35,021 nucleotides of DNA from a bacterium (GTDB lineage Bacteria > Bacillota > Limnochordia > DTU080 > RSA5): the NCBI GenBank assembly GCA_002919195.1, contig PKEU01000089.1:1-35021 (forward strand). Reading direction: 5' to 3'. Shown piece after piece: positions 4,332 to 14,528 of the stretch. Position 1 is the stretch's first letter. Each line of letters opens with the position of its first letter. The position numbers were made by a program, and so were the translations under genes. A model generated the notes under the pieces. It ran no database searches and had not been told where the DNA came from. It worked only from the letters and a program-made list of their open reading frames with translations.

Positions 4332-4347
4332 ATTGAGGTGGTACGCG

Positions 4348-5889
4348 GTGAGCGACGAGCGACGCGACGTGTCTTACGCCCGAGACGAGACGGCCCGTAA
4401 GGTCTTTGCCGTCTTGGGAATTCCCCCTGAGGAGCTGGCCTATACCATGGCCTCCTACTCCCGGAGCCGCCGCAGCTTTTTGGAGAGCAACCGCTACATC
4501 ACCGGGCAAAAGGCGGCTAATTTCCTAGAAACCTTTTACTTTGCGTACGGCCACCGGAGCATCGCCGACATGGCCCACATCCCCTTGGCCATCGAAAACA
4601 TCAGCATCCTGGCAGCGATTGAGGTCGTCGCCGAACAACTTTGGGACGGCCAAGAGCGGAGCACGCGCTACCAGGACTTTACTGTCACAGGCTACTGCGT
4701 TCCCCAAGAAATCCAAGAGGGGACGCTTCAAAACGAATACGTCGCCGCCGCAGACGCGCTCTTTGCCGCCTATGAAAAGGTGAGCGCCGCCGTTTACCAG
4801 TACTACCTCGACACGGTGGAAAAGCCTGAGTCCATGGAGGAAAAGGATTTTGCCCGCACCTTGCGGGCCAGGGCCTTTGATGTAGGGCGTTACTGCCTGC
4901 CGCTCGCCACCCACACCAGCGTCGGCCAGATCACCTCCGCCCGGACGCTGGAACGCCAGATCAGCCGGCTCCTCGCCAGCCCCTTCGGCGAGGTGCGGCG
5001 CGTTGCGGAGGCCATGCGCGAGGCGGGCCGGGCGCCGGCCCGTAACCCCAGAGATGAAAGGCTCCTGGAGCTCCTGGAGGAGTTGGGCGATGACGCCGCG
5101 GCTTTGGGCGCTTTGCGAGAAGCGCTGCAACCGGTGGCAGCCGCCCCCACTCTAGTCAAGTACACGGCGCCCGACATTTACCGCATCGAGACGCTCAAAA
5201 TCATGCGCGAGGTCTACGAAGGCCTCCTGGGTAAGGTGCCTGTAGGCGTGACCGAAGCCGTCACGCTGGTCGAAGTGGACGATCCGGCCGTGGAGGCCCT
5301 CTCCAAGCTCTTGTATACGGTGGGGCGCCATCCCTTTAGCCAGATCGTCTTGCACGTGCAGACGCTGAGCCGGCCCGAGATCCGGGAACTGTTGGAAATG
5401 GCCTTTCAAGAGCGGGGGCAGCACGACGAGTGGCTGCCTGAGTTTCGCGTGGGCTATCTCAATTTTGACGTGGTCATGGATATCGGAGCCTTTCGGGACT
5501 TGCACCGGCACCGCCGGTGCCAAAAGTACCGGCAGCCCTTTTCCACCCATTTGGGATTTGACGAACCCGAAGCGGTTGCCCTCGCCGGCGCGGAAACGGT
5601 CTACCGCGAGGCGATGAAGCAAGCCTTTGCCGTCTCTGAAAAGATCGAAGCGGCCCAGCCACCCTTGGGGGCGTACATCCTTCCCCTGGGCACCCGCTGC
5701 CGCGCCCTCTTTTCTATGGACTGGGCCGAACTGGCCTACATAGCGGAGCTGCGGACGCGGCCGAGCGGGCACTTTTCCTACCGGCGCATCGCCTACGAGA
5801 TGTATCAAAAGGCGATTCGCTTTTATCCTGATATGGCCCCTTATGTGCGGGCCGTCGATCCAGCTTATGAGGACTTGACCGAGCGCTGA
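4348..5889 (+). CDS. Internally duplicated ThyX-like (FAD-dependent thymidylate synthase family) protein
   Basis: A 513-residue protein made of two ThyX-like halves. Half one (about residues 30-230) has GHRSIAD (68-74), a central helix ending in STRY (105-108), and a LPLATHTSVGQITSARTLER stretch like the ThyX C-terminal part. Half two (about 320-500) has RHR (387-389), then ILPLGTRCRALFSMDWAELA and the final helix. Canonical ThyX is about 220-250 residues with one RHR-x7-SxRY signature. Here half one keeps SxRY but has AEQ for RHR, while half two keeps RHR but has proline in place of the serine. ThyX methylates dUMP using methylene-tetrahydrofolate and FAD; whether this protein does so is unknown. 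An upstream TTG (4333) keeps the frame open, but GAGGTGG (4335-4341) places the start at GTG 4348. Its last 25 bases overlap the convergent 74-residue gene. Confidence 0.8.
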   Translation: MSDERRDVSYARDETARKVFAVLGIPPEELAYTMASYSRSRRSFLESNRYITGQKAANFLETFYFAYGHRSIADMAHIPLAIENISILAAIEVVAEQLWDGQERSTRYQDFTVTGYCVPQEIQEGTLQNEYVAAADALFAAYEKVSAAVYQYYLDTVEKPESMEEKDFARTLRARAFDVGRYCLPLATHTSVGQITSARTLERQISRLLASPFGEVRRVAEAMREAGRAPARNPRDERLLELLEELGDDAAALGALREALQPVAAAPTLVKYTAPDIYRIETLKIMREVYEGLLGKVPVGVTEAVTLVEVDDPAVEALSKLLYTVGRHPFSQIVLHVQTLSRPEIRELLEMAFQERGQHDEWLPEFRVGYLNFDVVMDIGAFRDLHRHRRCQKYRQPFSTHLGFDEPEAVALAGAETVYREAMKQAFAVSEKIEAAQPPLGAYILPLGTRCRALFSMDWAELAYIAELRTRPSGHFSYRRIAYEMYQKAIRFYPDMAPYVRAVDPAYEDLTER

Positions 5890-8579: not shown

Positions 8580-8600
8580 GGGGCGCTACACCAGCGCCCC
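8580..8600 (-). terminator. Hairpin after the envelope operon
   Basis: An 8-bp perfect stem GGGGCGCT/AGCGCCCC (8593-8600 with 8580-8587) and a 5-base loop lie 45 bases after the stop of the SLH/coiled-coil gene. The following tract (TTCGTCG on the minus strand) is only weakly U-rich, so termination may be partial. Confidence 0.5.
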
Positions 8601-8645
8601 CTCACCTCTTACGACCGCGGTTAGTTTCTCCTTACGGCGCGACTT

Positions 8646-9953
8646 CTAGTTCGCCAGGCCGATCAGCCCCAAGAGCGCTCCGATGATGCCAAACATCTGC
8701 GCTTGCCGGGCCGATGCCAGCTCCCTCTCCGTGTTTTGCCGGTAGCTGTTAAACTCCTCACGCAGGGCTTTAAGCTCTTCGGCGACGGTGCCCGCCAAGA
8801 GGAAGCTGTGCTGATACTGCGACTCCAATTCGTCCATCAACCGGTCGCTCAGCGCCCGCAGCTGCTCCTCCGAAAGCCCGATTTGGCTCTGCATGGCCAG
8901 CACTTGCCGCTCGACCCCGTCCACCTGGTTTTTCAGGGCCTCGAGGCGGCTCGTCACATCGTCCAGCGCATCCACCCGCTGTTGCAGGGCCTGAACCCTT
9001 TGCGCCAGCGCCGCGTCGGCCTCCTGGAGGCTCGAGTATTGCCCCGACGAAGCCGCCCGCTGCTCCTCGATGGCGAGCTGCTGCGCGGCCAAAGCCTCCG
9101 ACTGCGCGTTGAGCTCGCTGCGGATGCCCGCCAGCGCTTGCTCCACGTCGGCGATGAGCTCGTCCAGTTCGTCCGAGAGCGACTGGACGTTGGTCTCCAA
9201 CGTCCTAAGCCGCGCCGCGTCCGCCTCCAGCGATTCCTGCAGTCCGCCCAAAGCGATGCCGCTATCGGCCAGCGCCTGCCGGACATTGGCCTCCAATGCG
9301 GCTATCCGGTCCTCACTCTCCGCTTTCAACGCGGCGATCATCTCGATCACTTCGCTGCGGAGAGCATTCTCCCGCTCATCGAGGAGGTTTCTCAGCTGGT
9401 TGAGGTTTTGCTGCAGCTGGACCACTTCGGCTTGGAGCTCGGCCCGCAGGGCGGCCTCTTGCTCAGCCAGGTCTCCGGTGAGCCTGCGCTCGAGTTCCTC
9501 GACGTCCGCGATGACATCCGAGAGAAGCGCGATCACCTCGGACATTTTATCTTCAACGACCGCGACTTGCCTCTCATTGGTAGCGATCCGGGCATCCGTT
9601 TGGTCGAGGCGGGCGTAGACGGCCACCAGTTCCTCCCGGAACTCCGTGACGACACGCCGCAAGAGCTCGACGTCCTCCCGGCTTTGAGGTTGGACGCCAC
9701 CTGTCTCGATCTCCCGCAGGATCCGGGCCACAACCGTGGCCAGGGTAAACCGGTCAGCGGGTTGATCACCGCGGAACAACCCGTCCTCGACGGCGACGTA
9801 ACCCCGCTCAACGAGATCCATCACCGCCTCGTAAGCCCAGTGATCCGGCGGCACGTCCCGCACGGTTTGCGCTGAAACCGGTCCTGCCGCCAGGGCCACG
9901 AGCATCGCGCCGATCAGTGCTACCCATACCCGTGGAAACTTTGCTGTCACCAT
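8646..9953 (-). CDS. Secreted SLH-domain/coiled-coil protein, Omp-alpha-like envelope tether
   Basis: A 435-residue exported protein. Residues 1-28 are a signal peptide ending PVSA before QT. Residues 33-83 form one SLH domain (DVPPDHWAYEAVMDLVERGY), which in other systems binds pyruvylated wall polymers or peptidoglycan. Residues 92-410 are an almost unbroken coiled coil rich in Glu, Leu, Ala and Gln. Residues 419-435 are a short hydrophobic tail (QMFGIIGALLGLIGLAN). This is the plan of Thermotoga Omp-alpha, a rod that spans the periplasm with its SLH head on the wall and its C-terminal tail in the outer membrane. An earlier ATG at 9974 overlaps the previous stop, but AGGAG 8 bases before ATG 9953 favours the start used here. 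It is the last gene of the exbB-exbD-tonB operon. Homology to Omp-alpha itself is inferred from layout, not aligned. Confidence 0.8.
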   Translation of the reverse strand: MVTAKFPRVWVALIGAMLVALAAGPVSAQTVRDVPPDHWAYEAVMDLVERGYVAVEDGLFRGDQPADRFTLATVVARILREIETGGVQPQSREDVELLRRVVTEFREELVAVYARLDQTDARIATNERQVAVVEDKMSEVIALLSDVIADVEELERRLTGDLAEQEAALRAELQAEVVQLQQNLNQLRNLLDERENALRSEVIEMIAALKAESEDRIAALEANVRQALADSGIALGGLQESLEADAARLRTLETNVQSLSDELDELIADVEQALAGIRSELNAQSEALAAQQLAIEEQRAASSGQYSSLQEADAALAQRVQALQQRVDALDDVTSRLEALKNQVDGVERQVLAMQSQIGLSEEQLRALSDRLMDELESQYQHSFLLAGTVAEELKALREEFNSYRQNTERELASARQAQMFGIIGALLGLIGLAN

Positions 9954-9973
9954 CGACACCTCTCCTGTCCTCA

Positions 9974-12133
9974 TTACTGGACGACTCTCACTTGGCCATG
10001 GGCCGGCATGACGCGCACCTCTTGGCCGTCTTGATCATAGACCCGGACCCGGCCAAATTGGATCGCATGATCTCCTGGTTTGAGCGCCTTCAATCGCAGG
10101 GTCGCCAGCGTGTCGCTCACCAGGCGCAGCACAGGCTCGCTGGCCCCAGCCCGTTGGCCCCGGATTCGGACCATGACGGTCCCGTCCGGGCCTTCCACAA
10201 CTTGGGGCGTCTGCCATGACAGGACCTTGGCCTGACCCTCGGCCTCTTCGACAAAGACCCGTCCCTTATCGACCCCTAACGGACCACCAACGAGCTCGAG
10301 CGCGCTGGAGTCAAAGCGCACTTCGATTTCGGCGCCGTAGAAATTGCGGACATTGCGCGCCGCGATCCGGACCAGGAGGTAATCGCCCGGGCGGAGCTCG
10401 CTCTCGCCTCGCACGGGTTCGATCCGGAGCTCACTGTCGAGCGACGGGATCTCCAAAAAGCCGTTGGCCCGGAATTCCCTTTCGACGCCGGCGATCTCCC
10501 CCTTGACGCTGAAGGGCAAGTTCCCAAAGTAGGGATTGGGGCGGCGTATGGGCTCGATGTGCCACGTCACTTCCAGCGCTTCACCTGTGTAAAGAGGCCC
10601 GATGGGCTTCACGGACCGATCGCCTTCTGCCAGTCGAAGCCCCAGCGGCGACTCCCACGACACCACCACGCTGTTGGCGTCCGCCCCGCCGGTATTTTCG
10701 ACGCGCGCCCTCACCTTATAGGGAACCGGCTGCCACTCGCCGTCGACAACCCGCAACCGGCCCTCCTTCTCGTGCAGGGTGATGGTCAGCGCCGCTGGCG
10801 ACACGATCCGCACGCTGCGGCTGACGGCGTTCGATTCGGCATTGATCGCCTCGACGCGCACCGTGTACGTCAGCTCGCCGCCCACCGCCCCGTCGAGGGC
10901 GACGCGCCAGGTCACTTGCGACGTACGTCCAGAAGGCAAGTTGCCAAGGCGGCGGACCAGCGCTTCACCACCGGCGGGGCGCAGTCCCCTCGGCAGCTCC
11001 AGCCGGGCGACGACGTCGCGAGCGTCGCCTTCACCCGTGTTTTGGATGTACGCGATGATCGGGAAGGTGACGGTACGGTCGGGATCAGCCGTCACCGTCG
11101 ACGGCGAGGTGACCCCGATCGAAAGCTGACCGGGCGAAATGGAGATGCCGCCGAGGCCGTAGTGGGTTACGTACACGCGCTCCTCTCCCGGCAAGAGCGG
11201 GCGGGGGTCCCAGTAAAGCGCGGTAGCGCTATCCAGCTCAAACTCTCCTAGCCGGGTAAAGTCCCGGCCTGGTTCGAAATCAAAGTCCCACACACCGTCG
11301 GCCAGGGCGCCCCAGTTGGTGAAGTACACCCGGTCGGGTGTCGTCACGTCGCTCCCTCGTAAGGTTCCTTGAGCGGTTACCCTGGGATCGGTAAGCGAGT
11401 CGAAGGCCTGCCAAAACTCGGGGATCTGATCGCCAAAAAAGGCCGTGTCGGTGGTGATTGCAGACTCTTCGACACGAAAGGGCGCCCCGTCGTTGGAGCC
11501 CAACATGGTATCGAGCACCAGGCGGAACCCCACGTTATGGGCGCGCTCATCGCGATTGACGAGGCGATACTCGATGCGCACCGTGTCGAGCAGGCCTGTC
11601 GTAGAGCTGCGGATAATGCTCAAGTTTTGCGTGACGTCGATCGGGCCTAACCGGTAGGCCGTCTCGATCAGGCGGCCATCCACGACCCGCGGCGCGATGA
11701 GCTGCTCGCCAGTGAGACCAGCACGTCCTGCTCGTTCCGTCGCCTTACCACCAAAGACGTAATCAATCCCGTCGATGCGGACCGTCGCGTAGGAGGTCCA
11801 GGGAACTTGCCCAGGGATCATGTAGATGAGAGGACTTTCGTTGTCCGACTCGCGGTCGGGGTCGCCTCCCGTGGTCTGCACAGCGAAGCGACCCGTGTTC
11901 TCATCCGTGGCATTGACGATGATCGAGATGTATTCGTTGTACAGGCGGACCGTGTCGGCATCTTCCGCCGGATCCGCGTCCGCCGCGGAAAACTGCAGCG
12001 TCGCCGCGGCCTCCTCCTGGGCCGCGACCGGCAACGCAAACAAGACCGCCGCTGCGAGCGCCATAACCATAACCAGCGCCCAGCAGTTGAGGGACTGCGT
12101 CAAGACAAGACAGCGTGTGTTGCGTCGTGGCAC
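9974..12133 (-). CDS. Large secreted multi-domain protein with C-terminal cohesin-like domain
   Basis: About 719 residues, exported. A long N-terminal hydrophobic stretch ends at an ALPVAA signal cleavage site near residue 39. Residues 60-330 form a beta-rich module I do not recognise. Two Ig-like modules resembling CARDB/DUF11 repeats follow (about 340-445, with GEGDARDVVARLELPRGL, and 450-550, with NTGGADANSVVVSWESPLGL). Residues 570-720 resemble a cohesin-type fold (NFYGAEIEVRFDSSALELV, then a final strand FGRVRVYDQDG). There is no sorting motif, membrane tail or SLH domain. TTG 12136 and GTG 12133 are both possible starts; GGGAGG is better spaced for GTG. It is the fourth gene of the ExbB/ExbD/TonB operon and directly precedes the SLH/coiled-coil gene. 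It could bind a partner or a surface polymer; no enzymatic motif is seen. Confidence 0.7.
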   Translation of the reverse strand: MPRRNTRCLVLTQSLNCWALVMVMALAAAVLFALPVAAQEEAAATLQFSAADADPAEDADTVRLYNEYISIIVNATDENTGRFAVQTTGGDPDRESDNESPLIYMIPGQVPWTSYATVRIDGIDYVFGGKATERAGRAGLTGEQLIAPRVVDGRLIETAYRLGPIDVTQNLSIIRSSTTGLLDTVRIEYRLVNRDERAHNVGFRLVLDTMLGSNDGAPFRVEESAITTDTAFFGDQIPEFWQAFDSLTDPRVTAQGTLRGSDVTTPDRVYFTNWGALADGVWDFDFEPGRDFTRLGEFELDSATALYWDPRPLLPGEERVYVTHYGLGGISISPGQLSIGVTSPSTVTADPDRTVTFPIIAYIQNTGEGDARDVVARLELPRGLRPAGGEALVRRLGNLPSGRTSQVTWRVALDGAVGGELTYTVRVEAINAESNAVSRSVRIVSPAALTITLHEKEGRLRVVDGEWQPVPYKVRARVENTGGADANSVVVSWESPLGLRLAEGDRSVKPIGPLYTGEALEVTWHIEPIRRPNPYFGNLPFSVKGEIAGVEREFRANGFLEIPSLDSELRIEPVRGESELRPGDYLLVRIAARNVRNFYGAEIEVRFDSSALELVGGPLGVDKGRVFVEEAEGQAKVLSWQTPQVVEGPDGTVMVRIRGQRAGASEPVLRLVSDTLATLRLKALKPGDHAIQFGRVRVYDQDGQEVRVMPAHGQVRVVQ

Positions 12134-12175
12134 CAAAAATTCCTCCCTGGAATCCAGCGCTGACGCCCGGCCGCC

Positions 12176-13312
12176 TCAGCGAGCGAAGGAGCCCACCGTC
12201 GGCGGGACCTTGATGAGTCCATCGACTCGGTGCGTCAGGCTCCGGGCCTCGGGATCGTAGATGAAAACCACCCGGATTTCGTACGTCTCATCGTAGGGCC
12301 GGTACGTCATGCCCCGGGTCGCCACGGTTACCGAGTAATCGTCGATGGCGTCAATGCCCGACGACGACGTGACTACGGTCTCGAGGACGTTGCCAGCCGG
12401 ATCGACGATCACCGCCACTTCGACCGTCAGCGCCCGATTGATCACACCGACAAAGTTTTTGGGCCAACCGTAGGAGCCGGGGCTGCTGATCATCGACAAG
12501 CCCATGGGCGGCAAGGCCGGCTCGGTGGAAAGCTCCGCGTTGGGCGCGGCCGAGCTGACGTTTTCACGGGCGCCCGTGCCGCCCGGTTCGGAGGCCGAAG
12601 CGCTCTCCTCGCCCGCCGCCAGCTCACTTTGCGCGGGCGGGCCGGACTCGGCCGCCGTCGCCGCCCGGGAGGAGACTTCCTCTTCCACCTGGGGGGGCGC
12701 CGGCACCGCCGGCACTGGCCGGGTGCCCTGCGGCGCCGTAAGGACCGGCGTCAACGTGGCGGCAACCTCGACGTCGCCCACCTCCGCGTCGGAGGCAGAG
12801 GGAGCTTCCGCAGGCGTCGCGGGCCGCGCTTCAGGTTGGGGCCGCGCCTCGGCGACCGAAGGGGTGACCGCGGTGGGTTTCTCCTCTTGAGGCTGCTCTT
12901 GGATGACCTCTGCCCGGACTTCCGGAACCCTCACCTCGGCCTCGCTCCGCGCAGGGCCGGGCTCGGGTTTGGCTTGTTGCTCCGCTGGAGGCGCCGGTTC
13001 CGGACGAGGCTGCGGCTGCGGAATCGCTTGGGGCCGGCGCGCCGCTTCCGCTACGGCGGCCCGCGGGCGCTCCGGCGTCGTGACGTCGACTAACGTGACG
13101 TAGGTGAGACCTCCCTGATCTCCAGGGAACAATCCAGCGAATAAACCCGAAGGCACACGGGGGGCGATCAGAAACAAGAGGGCATGCAGAACGATGGAAA
13201 TGAGAAAAAAGACGGGCATGCGTCGCTCGCGTTCCAAATCCTCCATGTATCTCACATCCCTGGACCCAAAAAGCGGCGCGATCACACAAGGCGCCAGAAA
13301 GGCGCGAAACAC
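12176..13312 (-). CDS. tonB: TonB-family energy transducer
   Basis: TonB couples the ExbB-ExbD proton channel to the outer membrane. The 378-residue protein has the full architecture. A short cytoplasmic N terminus precedes one membrane segment (about residues 33-50) containing SIVLH, the SxxxH motif required in TonB for response to proton-motive force. A long Pro/Ala/Glu-rich spacer (about 75-270) follows, then a C-terminal TonB domain (about 285-365) with DPAGNVLETVVTSSSGIDAIDD and a final IRVVFIYDPE strand. The GTG start at 13312 lies 3 bases after the exbD stop but lacks a good ribosome site; ATG 13246 (MEDLERERR) is a plausible shorter start that gives a more typical N terminus. No TonB-dependent receptor is encoded in the window. 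Presence in a spore-former genome implies an outer membrane. Confidence 0.87.
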   Translation of the reverse strand: MFRAFLAPCVIAPLFGSRDVRYMEDLERERRMPVFFLISIVLHALLFLIAPRVPSGLFAGLFPGDQGGLTYVTLVDVTTPERPRAAVAEAARRPQAIPQPQPRPEPAPPAEQQAKPEPGPARSEAEVRVPEVRAEVIQEQPQEEKPTAVTPSVAEARPQPEARPATPAEAPSASDAEVGDVEVAATLTPVLTAPQGTRPVPAVPAPPQVEEEVSSRAATAAESGPPAQSELAAGEESASASEPGGTGARENVSSAAPNAELSTEPALPPMGLSMISSPGSYGWPKNFVGVINRALTVEVAVIVDPAGNVLETVVTSSSGIDAIDDYSVTVATRGMTYRPYDETYEIRVVFIYDPEARSLTHRVDGLIKVPPTVGSFAR

Positions 13313-13315
13313 GCC

Positions 13316-13732
13316 TTACGACTCAGGAGGCTGTGTGCCAAAGGCAAATCGAGAGACGCCTCCCTGCCGGGCTGCGTCCATGACACCGACGGCGTGTTCC
13401 CAGTACGCCCGGCTGTCACCCCGGATGATCAACGTCGCTTGCGGGTTTTCCCTCGCGAGCCGTTCCGCCGCCTGGCGGATGGCGGTGAGATTCGAAAGCC
13501 TTCCGTCAAGATAAATCGCGCCGCTTTGGGTGATGGTGACCTCAAGGTGCGCCGGCGGTTGTTGTTCTCCGGTAGCGGCCCGGGGCAGGTCGACTTCGAT
13601 ACCGCTTTCTACCGTGCGGAACGTGGTAAACAACATGAAGAAGACGAGGAGGAACATGATGACGTCGATCATGGGCAGCATCTCGACGCGAGGTTGCCGG
13701 TAGCGGATCCGGCGACTCGTCTCAAATCTCAC
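13316..13732 (-). CDS. exbD: ExbD/TolR-family proton-channel subunit
   Basis: A 138-residue inner-membrane protein. It has a short basic cytoplasmic N terminus, one transmembrane helix with the essential aspartate (LPMIDVIMFLLVFFMLF, D23), and a periplasmic domain ending in GVSRFAFGTQ, all as in ExbD/TolR. With ExbB it forms the proton-driven motor that powers TonB. The GTG start overlaps the exbB stop as GTGA and has GGAGGT 8 bases ahead, so translation is probably coupled. ExbD is favoured over TolR because a tonB gene follows 3 bases later and no tolA, tolB or pal is present. Confidence 0.93.
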   Translation of the reverse strand: MRFETSRRIRYRQPRVEMLPMIDVIMFLLVFFMLFTTFRTVESGIEVDLPRAATGEQQPPAHLEVTITQSGAIYLDGRLSNLTAIRQAAERLARENPQATLIIRGDSRAYWEHAVGVMDAARQGGVSRFAFGTQPPES

Positions 13733-14349
13733 CGGGGATTACCTCCGTTGGTGATCAGATCGGTGAGTTCCAGCGCCCGGCGGCTCATCTCTCGTACCCT
13801 GCGCTCGATCTGGCTGCTCAGCCAGTGGTGGATCGCCATTGTCGGAATAGCGATGATCAAGCCCGCCGCTGTCGTGATCAGCGCCTCGGCGATCCCTACG
13901 GCCAATGCGGCGGGATTGCTCTCGACTCCCTGAAAGTTACCCAGGACTCGGAAGCTGGAAATGATTCCCGTCACAGTGCCGAGAAGGCCCAGCATCGGCG
14001 CGATGGTGACGATGGTCGCCAGCAGGCCAAGACCCCGCTCCATCTTGAAGATCTCGTCCTGCCCCACCTCTTCCAGATGCTCGCGCAGCTCCTCTTTCGG
14101 CCGATCACTGTAAGCGATGCCGGCGGACAAAATCGCAGCCACCGGCCCTTTCGACTTTCGTAAAAGCTGCATCGCTTCGAGGACTTTCCCCTCTTGGAGG
14201 CAAAGCTTCACATCTTCCATGAGCTCTTCGGAATCAGCCCGGGTTTTGGCCAGGTACCAAATGCGCTCAAGAGAGACCGCTACGGCGATTACTGATGCCA
14301 ACAAAAGGGGGATCATCACGGGTCCGCCCTTGATGATGATGTCGAGCAT
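13729..14349 (-). CDS. exbB: ExbB/TolQ/MotA-family proton-channel subunit
   Basis: A polytopic inner-membrane subunit of the TonB motor, about 206 residues. Three transmembrane segments are visible: MIPLLLASVIAVAVSLERIW near the N terminus, ATIVTIAPMLGLLGTVTGII in the middle, and ALITTAAGLIIAIPTMAI near the C terminus. The APMLGLLGTVTGII and TTAAGLIIAIP stretches are family hallmarks. The frame is open to a TTG at 14376 that has no ribosome site; GGAGGT about 10 bases before ATG 14349 favours the shorter form. It is the first gene of the envelope operon and overlaps exbD by 4 bases. A clear promoter is not visible between it and the preceding terminator. Confidence 0.92.
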   Translation of the reverse strand: MLDIIIKGGPVMIPLLLASVIAVAVSLERIWYLAKTRADSEELMEDVKLCLQEGKVLEAMQLLRKSKGPVAAILSAGIAYSDRPKEELREHLEEVGQDEIFKMERGLGLLATIVTIAPMLGLLGTVTGIISSFRVLGNFQGVESNPAALAVGIAEALITTAAGLIIAIPTMAIHHWLSSQIERRVREMSRRALELTDLITNGGNPR

Positions 14350-14404
14350 CTGCCCATCGACCTCCGCGTCCGCCAATACGTCAAAACCGCGACAAAAATG
14401 GGGG

Positions 14405-14447
14405 AAAAAGAACCGAGACGCAACGGCATCGGCCTTTCGCGTCCCGG
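14405..14447 (-). terminator. Rho-independent terminator after the GNAT gene
   Basis: On the minus strand the arms CCGGGACGC (14447-14439) and GCGTCTCGG (14421-14413) pair with one G-U, with a small inner GGC/GCC stem in the loop. TTCTTTTT (14412-14405) follows. It separates the GNAT gene from the exbB operon. Confidence 0.7.
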
Positions 14448-14528
14448 TCTAGGTTCGACATGGAAATATCCGTTCCTGTCGGTTGTAATGGGATTTTCTC
14501 GCCCTGGAACCGAATGAGAACCTTGAAC

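Follow-up and report, generated by a model that had tools for sequence, protein, structure and literature searches.

A Ton-type motor encoded together with an SLH tether in diderm Bacillota: a possible analogue of Tol-Pal

The DNA considered here is a window of 35,021 nucleotides (contig PKEU01000089.1 of assembly GCA_002919195.1, our contig C16) from a 3.13-Mb draft genome, 97% complete, of a member of the Limnochordia. On its minus strand lie five consecutive genes: exbB, exbD, tonB and the genes of two exported proteins that we call P720 and SLHcc, the latter combining a surface-layer homology (SLH) domain with a coiled coil. We give an even chance to the reading that these genes form a single proton-driven analogue of Tol-Pal in diderm Bacillota, which would act on an SLH tether by a mechanism that we infer. 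The five genes stay together throughout the relatives in which the order could be followed, they accompany the outer-membrane assembly protein BamA, and most carriers have no detectable TonB-dependent receptor. The Ton-type motor is thus a near-universal core feature of diderm Bacillota lineages for which no Ton system had been reported, and it is tied to a tether and not to a receptor.

In a survey from 2025, the Negativicutes were the only diderms among the Firmicutes with detected Ton systems, and curated Tol-Pal systems were confined to Gracilicutes (PMC12204202), to which Pal is also restricted (PMC10628300). ExbB, ExbD and TonB were found together without a receptor in Halothermothrix orenii, and a different function was suggested by the authors (PMC2626281); a link to P720 and SLHcc, the breadth of the distribution and the parallel with Tol-Pal were not reported there. 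SLH proteins have been noted in an outer-membrane locus of Halanaerobiales (PMC5007114). In the open-licence literature we came across no account of the five genes as a module; the original prediction, made from the DNA sequence, did not recognise the combination as described.

Gene content of the locus

All five genes are present and intact according to the open reading frame (ORF) list and Pfam, at the place where they had been predicted. Structures were predicted with AlphaFold2 (AF2), with confidence expressed as predicted local distance difference test (pLDDT). The features are as follows.

13729..14376, minus strand: exbB/tolQ-type proton-channel subunit, 215 amino acids (Pfam MotA_ExbB, E=1.4e-33; single copy in its own genome)
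13316..13732, minus strand: exbD/tolR-type subunit, 138 amino acids (Pfam ExbD, E=4.4e-28; the only ExbD of the genome)
12176..13312, minus strand: TonB-family force transducer, ORF of 378 amino acids with a probable start at ATG 13246 (SxxxH, TonB_C, predicted fold of the C-terminal domain)
13157..13219, minus strand: TonB transmembrane helix with SxxxH (AF2 helix, pLDDT ~90; S15 and H19 invariant in alignment A3)
12203..12502, minus strand: TonB C-terminal domain (AF2, mostly pLDDT >90; fold resembling TonB C-terminal domain structures)
9974..12136, minus strand: P720, secreted, 720 amino acids, single copy, core gene of the lineage (AF2 pLDDT 88; count of relatives)
11102..11959, minus strand: P720 N-terminal beta domain, about residues 60-345, the best conserved part (invariant columns of alignments A1 and A2 cluster here)
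10802..11104, minus strand: P720 Ig-like domain of the NEW3/CARDB type (Pfam NPCBM_assoc, DUF11 and CARDB in homologues)
10442..10774, minus strand: P720 second Ig-like beta domain (AF2 beta sandwich)
9983..10429, minus strand: P720 C-terminal cohesin-like domain (profile against PDB cohesins; Pfam Cohesin)
8646..9974, minus strand: SLHcc, with signal peptide, one SLH domain, long coiled coil and C-terminal hydrophobic helix (Pfam SLH, hydropathy)
9747..9857, minus strand: SLH domain of SLHcc, DVPPDHWAYEAV... (Pfam, E=3e-4 for the window copy)
8649..8696, minus strand: predicted C-terminal hydrophobic membrane anchor of SLHcc (hydropathy)

As had been claimed, the genes are tightly packed, apart from small differences that depend on the start codons taken: the overlap of exbB with exbD is 4 nt (nucleotides), exbD and tonB are separated by 3 nt, or by 69 nt if tonB starts at ATG 13246, the gap between tonB and the P720 gene is 39 nt, and the P720 and SLHcc genes overlap by 1 nt or lie 20 nt apart.

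Conservation of the gene order

P720 was detected in 59 of 61 Limnochordia genomes, where full-length copies are about 41–70% identical. In the class to which Orenia belongs, it occurs in 57 of 59 genomes. For counts of gene order only loci with room on the contig were taken. Some 39 Limnochordia loci that have enough sequence upstream show exbB-exbD-tonB-P720-SLHcc in this order; tonB is divergent and gives no match in about a third of them when a single sequence is used for the search, and SLHcc is missed in one. A GTDB-wide scan, with one genome per species, returned 232 relatives. Among the best 80, which were examined and which include Halanaerobiia (Orenia, Halonatronum, Halanaerobacter, Halanaerobium, Frackibacter) as well as unclassified Bacillota, all 73 loci with room retain the order, the position of tonB being occupied by an ORF. 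The complete set is present in 20 of 20 additional loci, taken from about 19 of the phylum's families; tonB goes unrecognised in one. This linkage is far beyond chance, and, as the original prediction requires, the five genes are linked in relatives wherever the contig leaves room.

Association with an outer membrane

BamA/Omp85, which was looked for in the source genome and its relatives, is present in the former and in 59/61 genomes of the class. The Limnochordia are diderm as judged by electron microscopy of Geochorda and Carboxydochorda, and the title of a paper on Limnochorda pilosa that is cited in the same work describes a Gram-negative spore-former (PMC11456536). The original prediction of a two-membrane endospore former is thus in agreement with the data, but we do not retain it as a novelty, as it was already known for this class (PMC11456536).

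The association extends over the phylum. In a sample of 398 genomes, with P720 counted when full-length, P720 and BamA occur together in 87, P720 alone in 1, BamA alone in 15 and neither in 295 (Fisher p ~1e-70, uncorrected for relatedness). The sole P720-positive genome without BamA (G470) is a draft. All but one of the 15 genomes with BamA only come from three families (f43, 10 genomes; f72, 3; f147, 1), which probably are Negativicutes; the remaining one is from an otherwise positive family. As the module tracks BamA across the phylum, losses of the outer membrane could also be traced with it.

Relation to TonB-dependent receptors

ExbB, ExbD and a TonB with a TonB-type C-terminal domain normally power receptors, and it can be envisaged that the module drives an unknown barrel, too divergent to be recognised, with P720 as periplasmic guide and SLHcc as structural anchor. 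Divergent receptors have already been raised for H. orenii (PMC2626281). However, the conserved cluster, as judged from the loci checked for order, includes no receptor or barrel gene. The receptor barrel model scored over its cut-off in only 7 of the 61 class genomes and in 12 of 26 genomes of Halanaerobiia and others, while the plug model gave a match in 22/59 P720 carriers of the phylum sample, as compared to 12/13 BamA-positive genomes that lack P720. Both models recover receptors in the E. coli, Caulobacter and Bacteroides controls, yet they miss most carriers.

Classical receptors, moreover, usually bring their own ExbBD. A further ExbD was detected in 14 of 17 receptor-bearing genomes, at most a few genes away from the receptor, and in 0 of 40 genomes without receptor (Fisher p 9e-11); the single ExbD of the receptor-less genomes is that of the module, except for one truncated draft that has none. 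In a tree of ExbB plus ExbD, made by a quick method and with some long branches, 37 module copies are split from 14 receptor-linked copies by one branch (SH-aLRT 92), so that receptor-linked ExbBD forms a separate branch within the same species. The module shares with ExbB-ExbD-TonB uptake systems the ExbB, ExbD and TonB_C families, the SxxxH motif and the conserved ExbD aspartate. It differs from them in that its cluster lacks a receptor and that most genomes carrying it lack a detectable one, too.

The window's own genome is an exception. The original prediction that no receptor accompanies the genes stands for the operon but not for the genome, which holds one TonB-dependent receptor elsewhere (contig C1, 64692-66173; locus L168), without ExbBD nearby. 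In this genome, and in Orenia and Halonatronum, a receptor is present and the module ExbBD is the only one; therefore the module motor may serve the receptor as well in these three. For the lineage as a whole, the window's genome excepted, the module is something other than a customary Ton system for taking up nutrients, and we regard uptake through a divergent receptor as rather unlikely.

Conservation of the motor

Functional residues of the ExbB-ExbD-TonB family are conserved, as had been predicted from the intact appearance of the three proteins. The proton-binding aspartate of ExbD is invariant in 37/37 module copies, and so are the equivalents of the ExbB pore residues Thr148 and Thr181. 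The serine and histidine of the TonB transmembrane motif are invariant in alignment A3, and SxxxH is present in 70 of the 73 tonB-slot ORFs obtained from the GTDB scan. The window TonB matches Pfam TonB_C weakly (E=0.0014), whereas 39/42 of its homologues are recognised by this model. The best PDB matches of the predicted C-terminal domain are TonB C-terminal domains; the template modelling (TM) score, TM(target), is 0.73 with that of E. coli TonB (1xx3) and only 0.39 with TolA domain III (1lr0).

These observations also bear on a simpler explanation, in which P720 and SLHcc merely form a static link between membranes and wall, next to Ton genes that serve TonB-dependent receptors. SLH-type tethers of other diderm Terrabacteria are thought to work without energy, and the motor could serve the single receptor of the window's genome. 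Still, the linkage persists in genomes without a detectable receptor and across many families, and the motor residues remain invariant. We therefore consider a static tether operon very improbable.

The exported partners

The structure of P720 is predicted confidently. A profile of its C-terminal domain hit cohesins of the PDB, most strongly 3l8q (E=7e-15), and this domain was the only part of P720 to give a match in a PDB sequence search; Pfam Cohesin was found in 32/45 homologues. Among the same 45, the first Ig-like domain was assigned to NPCBM_assoc in 41, to DUF11 in 31 and to CARDB in 28. The N-terminal domain has no sequence relative in Pfam or PDB searches. A lipobox is not conserved (6/66). 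A whole-chain Foldseek search was uninformative, as it gave generic multi-Ig matches such as integrins with TM scores of ~0.2.

Bacillota genomes without BamA also encode large proteins, of up to 2580 amino acids, that begin with the N-terminal domain of P720, here fused to RHS/YD repeats, to RCC1 plus a lipase-like domain, or to three SLH domains (loci L216, L219, L220, L221 and L223, in genomes G299, G277, G353, G141 and G337, respectively). Judged from sequence, the domain appears to be a surface module common to monoderm and diderm relatives. These fusions, as well as the frequent occurrence of cohesin and Ig-like domains in surface scaffolds, would suit a role in surface or S-layer assembly, with the TonB motor driving secretion or attachment of P720 as an exported surface protein and SLHcc serving as wall anchor; a reported case of Ton-dependent secretion is that of Oar and PopC from Myxococcus (PMC6434023). 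Against such a role, the cluster contains no secretion channel or receptor, and P720, unlike variable surface proteins, is a small core gene product of near-constant length over two classes, with a copy number of nearly always one. Surface assembly is, in our estimate, improbable.

In SLHcc, the SLH domain was found by Pfam in 33/37 homologues, whereas the hydrophobic C-terminal stretch occurs in all 37, ending 0–3 residues before the C-terminus. The coiled coil is variable in length. In G004 and G005, members of the window's own order, SLHcc reaches ~1450–1480 amino acids, several times the usual coiled-coil length (L076:7936-12279 and L111:8031-12473). A lipobox is rare (4/61).

The plan of Omp-alpha of Thermotoga consists of a signal peptide, an SLH domain, a long coiled coil and a C-terminal hydrophobic helix. 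SLHcc follows this plan in its signal peptide, SLH domain, coiled coil and C-terminal hydrophobic helix, but it is encoded together with a proton motor and P720. A wall-facing SLH domain, a coiled-coil stalk and a tether role are also shared with OmpM of the Negativicutes (PMC10628300). OmpM carries a C-terminal beta-barrel porin, however, whereas the coiled coil of SLHcc leads to a single helix without barrel, and the presumed Negativicutes of our sample are without P720.

Comparison with Tol-Pal and proposed mechanism

The order of motor, motor, transducer, periplasmic protein and wall anchor matches that of E. coli tolQ-tolR-tolA-tolB-pal, by role and without homology for the last two. The roles in common are those of a proton motor pair, a membrane-spanning force transducer whose C-terminal domain is of the TonB/TolA type, a soluble secreted beta protein and a wall-binding anchor. 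Both systems are core to genomes with an outer membrane and independent of receptors. TolQ/TolR and the ExbB/ExbD of the module belong to one homologous superfamily, and the folds of the TonB C-terminal domain and TolA domain III are related. The module is not a member of the Tol-Pal family, since it has neither TolB nor Pal. TolB, searched as TolB_N (PF04052), is absent in 51/52 genomes, with one weak match in the other, and the cluster contains no Pal, the SLH domain serving as wall-binding part instead. OmpA-domain matches were considered as Pal candidates and set aside, as the four that were inspected look like MotB.

In the Tol-Pal system, bound TolB keeps Pal off the wall, until TolA, driven by the proton motive force, removes TolB and Pal is left in place at the septum (PMC8928145). 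By analogy, ExbB and ExbD would form a proton-driven inner-membrane motor that works the TonB-like protein, the C-terminal domain of which would span the periplasm to reach the P720/SLHcc pair and not a nutrient receptor. P720, as a periplasmic multi-domain beta protein in the role of TolB, would bind SLHcc and free or reposition it. SLHcc would take the role of Pal, with its SLH domain on the wall and its C-terminal helix putatively in the outer membrane. When energised, the TonB-like protein, in the role of TolA, would pull P720 off SLHcc, and tethers could thus accumulate at sites that require attachment of the outer membrane to the wall, probably the division site. The protein contacts, the force on P720 and the role in constriction are in this scheme drawn from the parallel. 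The data agree with the original prediction of a TonB-driven envelope module around two exported proteins, and we propose that the module would act on the tether.

Several observations weigh against this analogy, next to the three genomes in which the only motor may also serve a receptor. P720 is a cohesin/Ig multi-domain protein and not a TolB beta-propeller, and no propeller match was obtained in PDB or Pfam searches; neither an obvious disordered, TolB-like N-terminus nor a clear TonB box was seen in it. The C-terminal domain of the transducer is nearer to TonB than to TolA, and the C-terminal helix of SLHcc could sit in the inner membrane instead. The idea that TonB length scales with SLHcc length was rejected (rho -0.17, p 0.19), and the very long SLHcc proteins of G004 and G005 stand beside a short TonB. 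TolQ/TolR models outscore ExbB/ExbD models, below cut-off, for the module copies, but we do not take this as a sign of Tol because receptor-linked copies give the same preference.

It is possible, with somewhat less than even probability, that diderm Bacillota outside the Negativicutes have a fully energised equivalent of Tol-Pal, composed of a Ton-type motor, a hitherto unnamed cohesin-bearing periplasmic protein and an SLH tether. At division it would stabilise the outer membrane and make it constrict, and it would be lost whenever the outer membrane is lost. The module may then be the long-missing counterpart of Tol-Pal, which holds and pulls in the outer membrane of Gram-negative bacteria. 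If true, this would represent an independent or an ancestral solution to the task done by Tol-Pal in Gracilicutes. With the module at hand, the way in which diderm Bacillota energise and constrict their outer membrane becomes directly testable in cultured species, such as those of Limnochorda, Geochorda, Orenia and Halanaerobium.

Flanking hairpins and additional genes

A hairpin had been predicted at each end of the operon. The upstream one is terminator-like, but the downstream one makes a weak terminator, and a scan of the region for terminators gave 6 sites against 7.1 expected from shuffles, which is no enrichment.

~14406..14449, minus strand: hairpin upstream of exbB with a T-run, probably terminating the gene before it (fold z=-2.7)
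8580..8600, minus strand: perfect 9-bp GC-rich hairpin downstream of SLHcc, without T tail (weak)

Additional genes border the module in places. Directly upstream of exbB, some lineages encode another small SLH protein (L116:2959-3651, L199:3811-4401, L208:10803-11495, L214:11072-11764). In Halanaerobiia, SLHcc is followed by an ORF of ~200 amino acids with a hydrophobic N-terminus (L126:8586-9209, L136:8605-9213, L142:8770-9363), which might belong to the module as its sixth gene in this group. Elsewhere in the window, on the plus strand (4333-5889), an ORF of 518 amino acids has two stretches that match the Thy1 (ThyX) family, possibly representing a tandem or fused ThyX-like protein.

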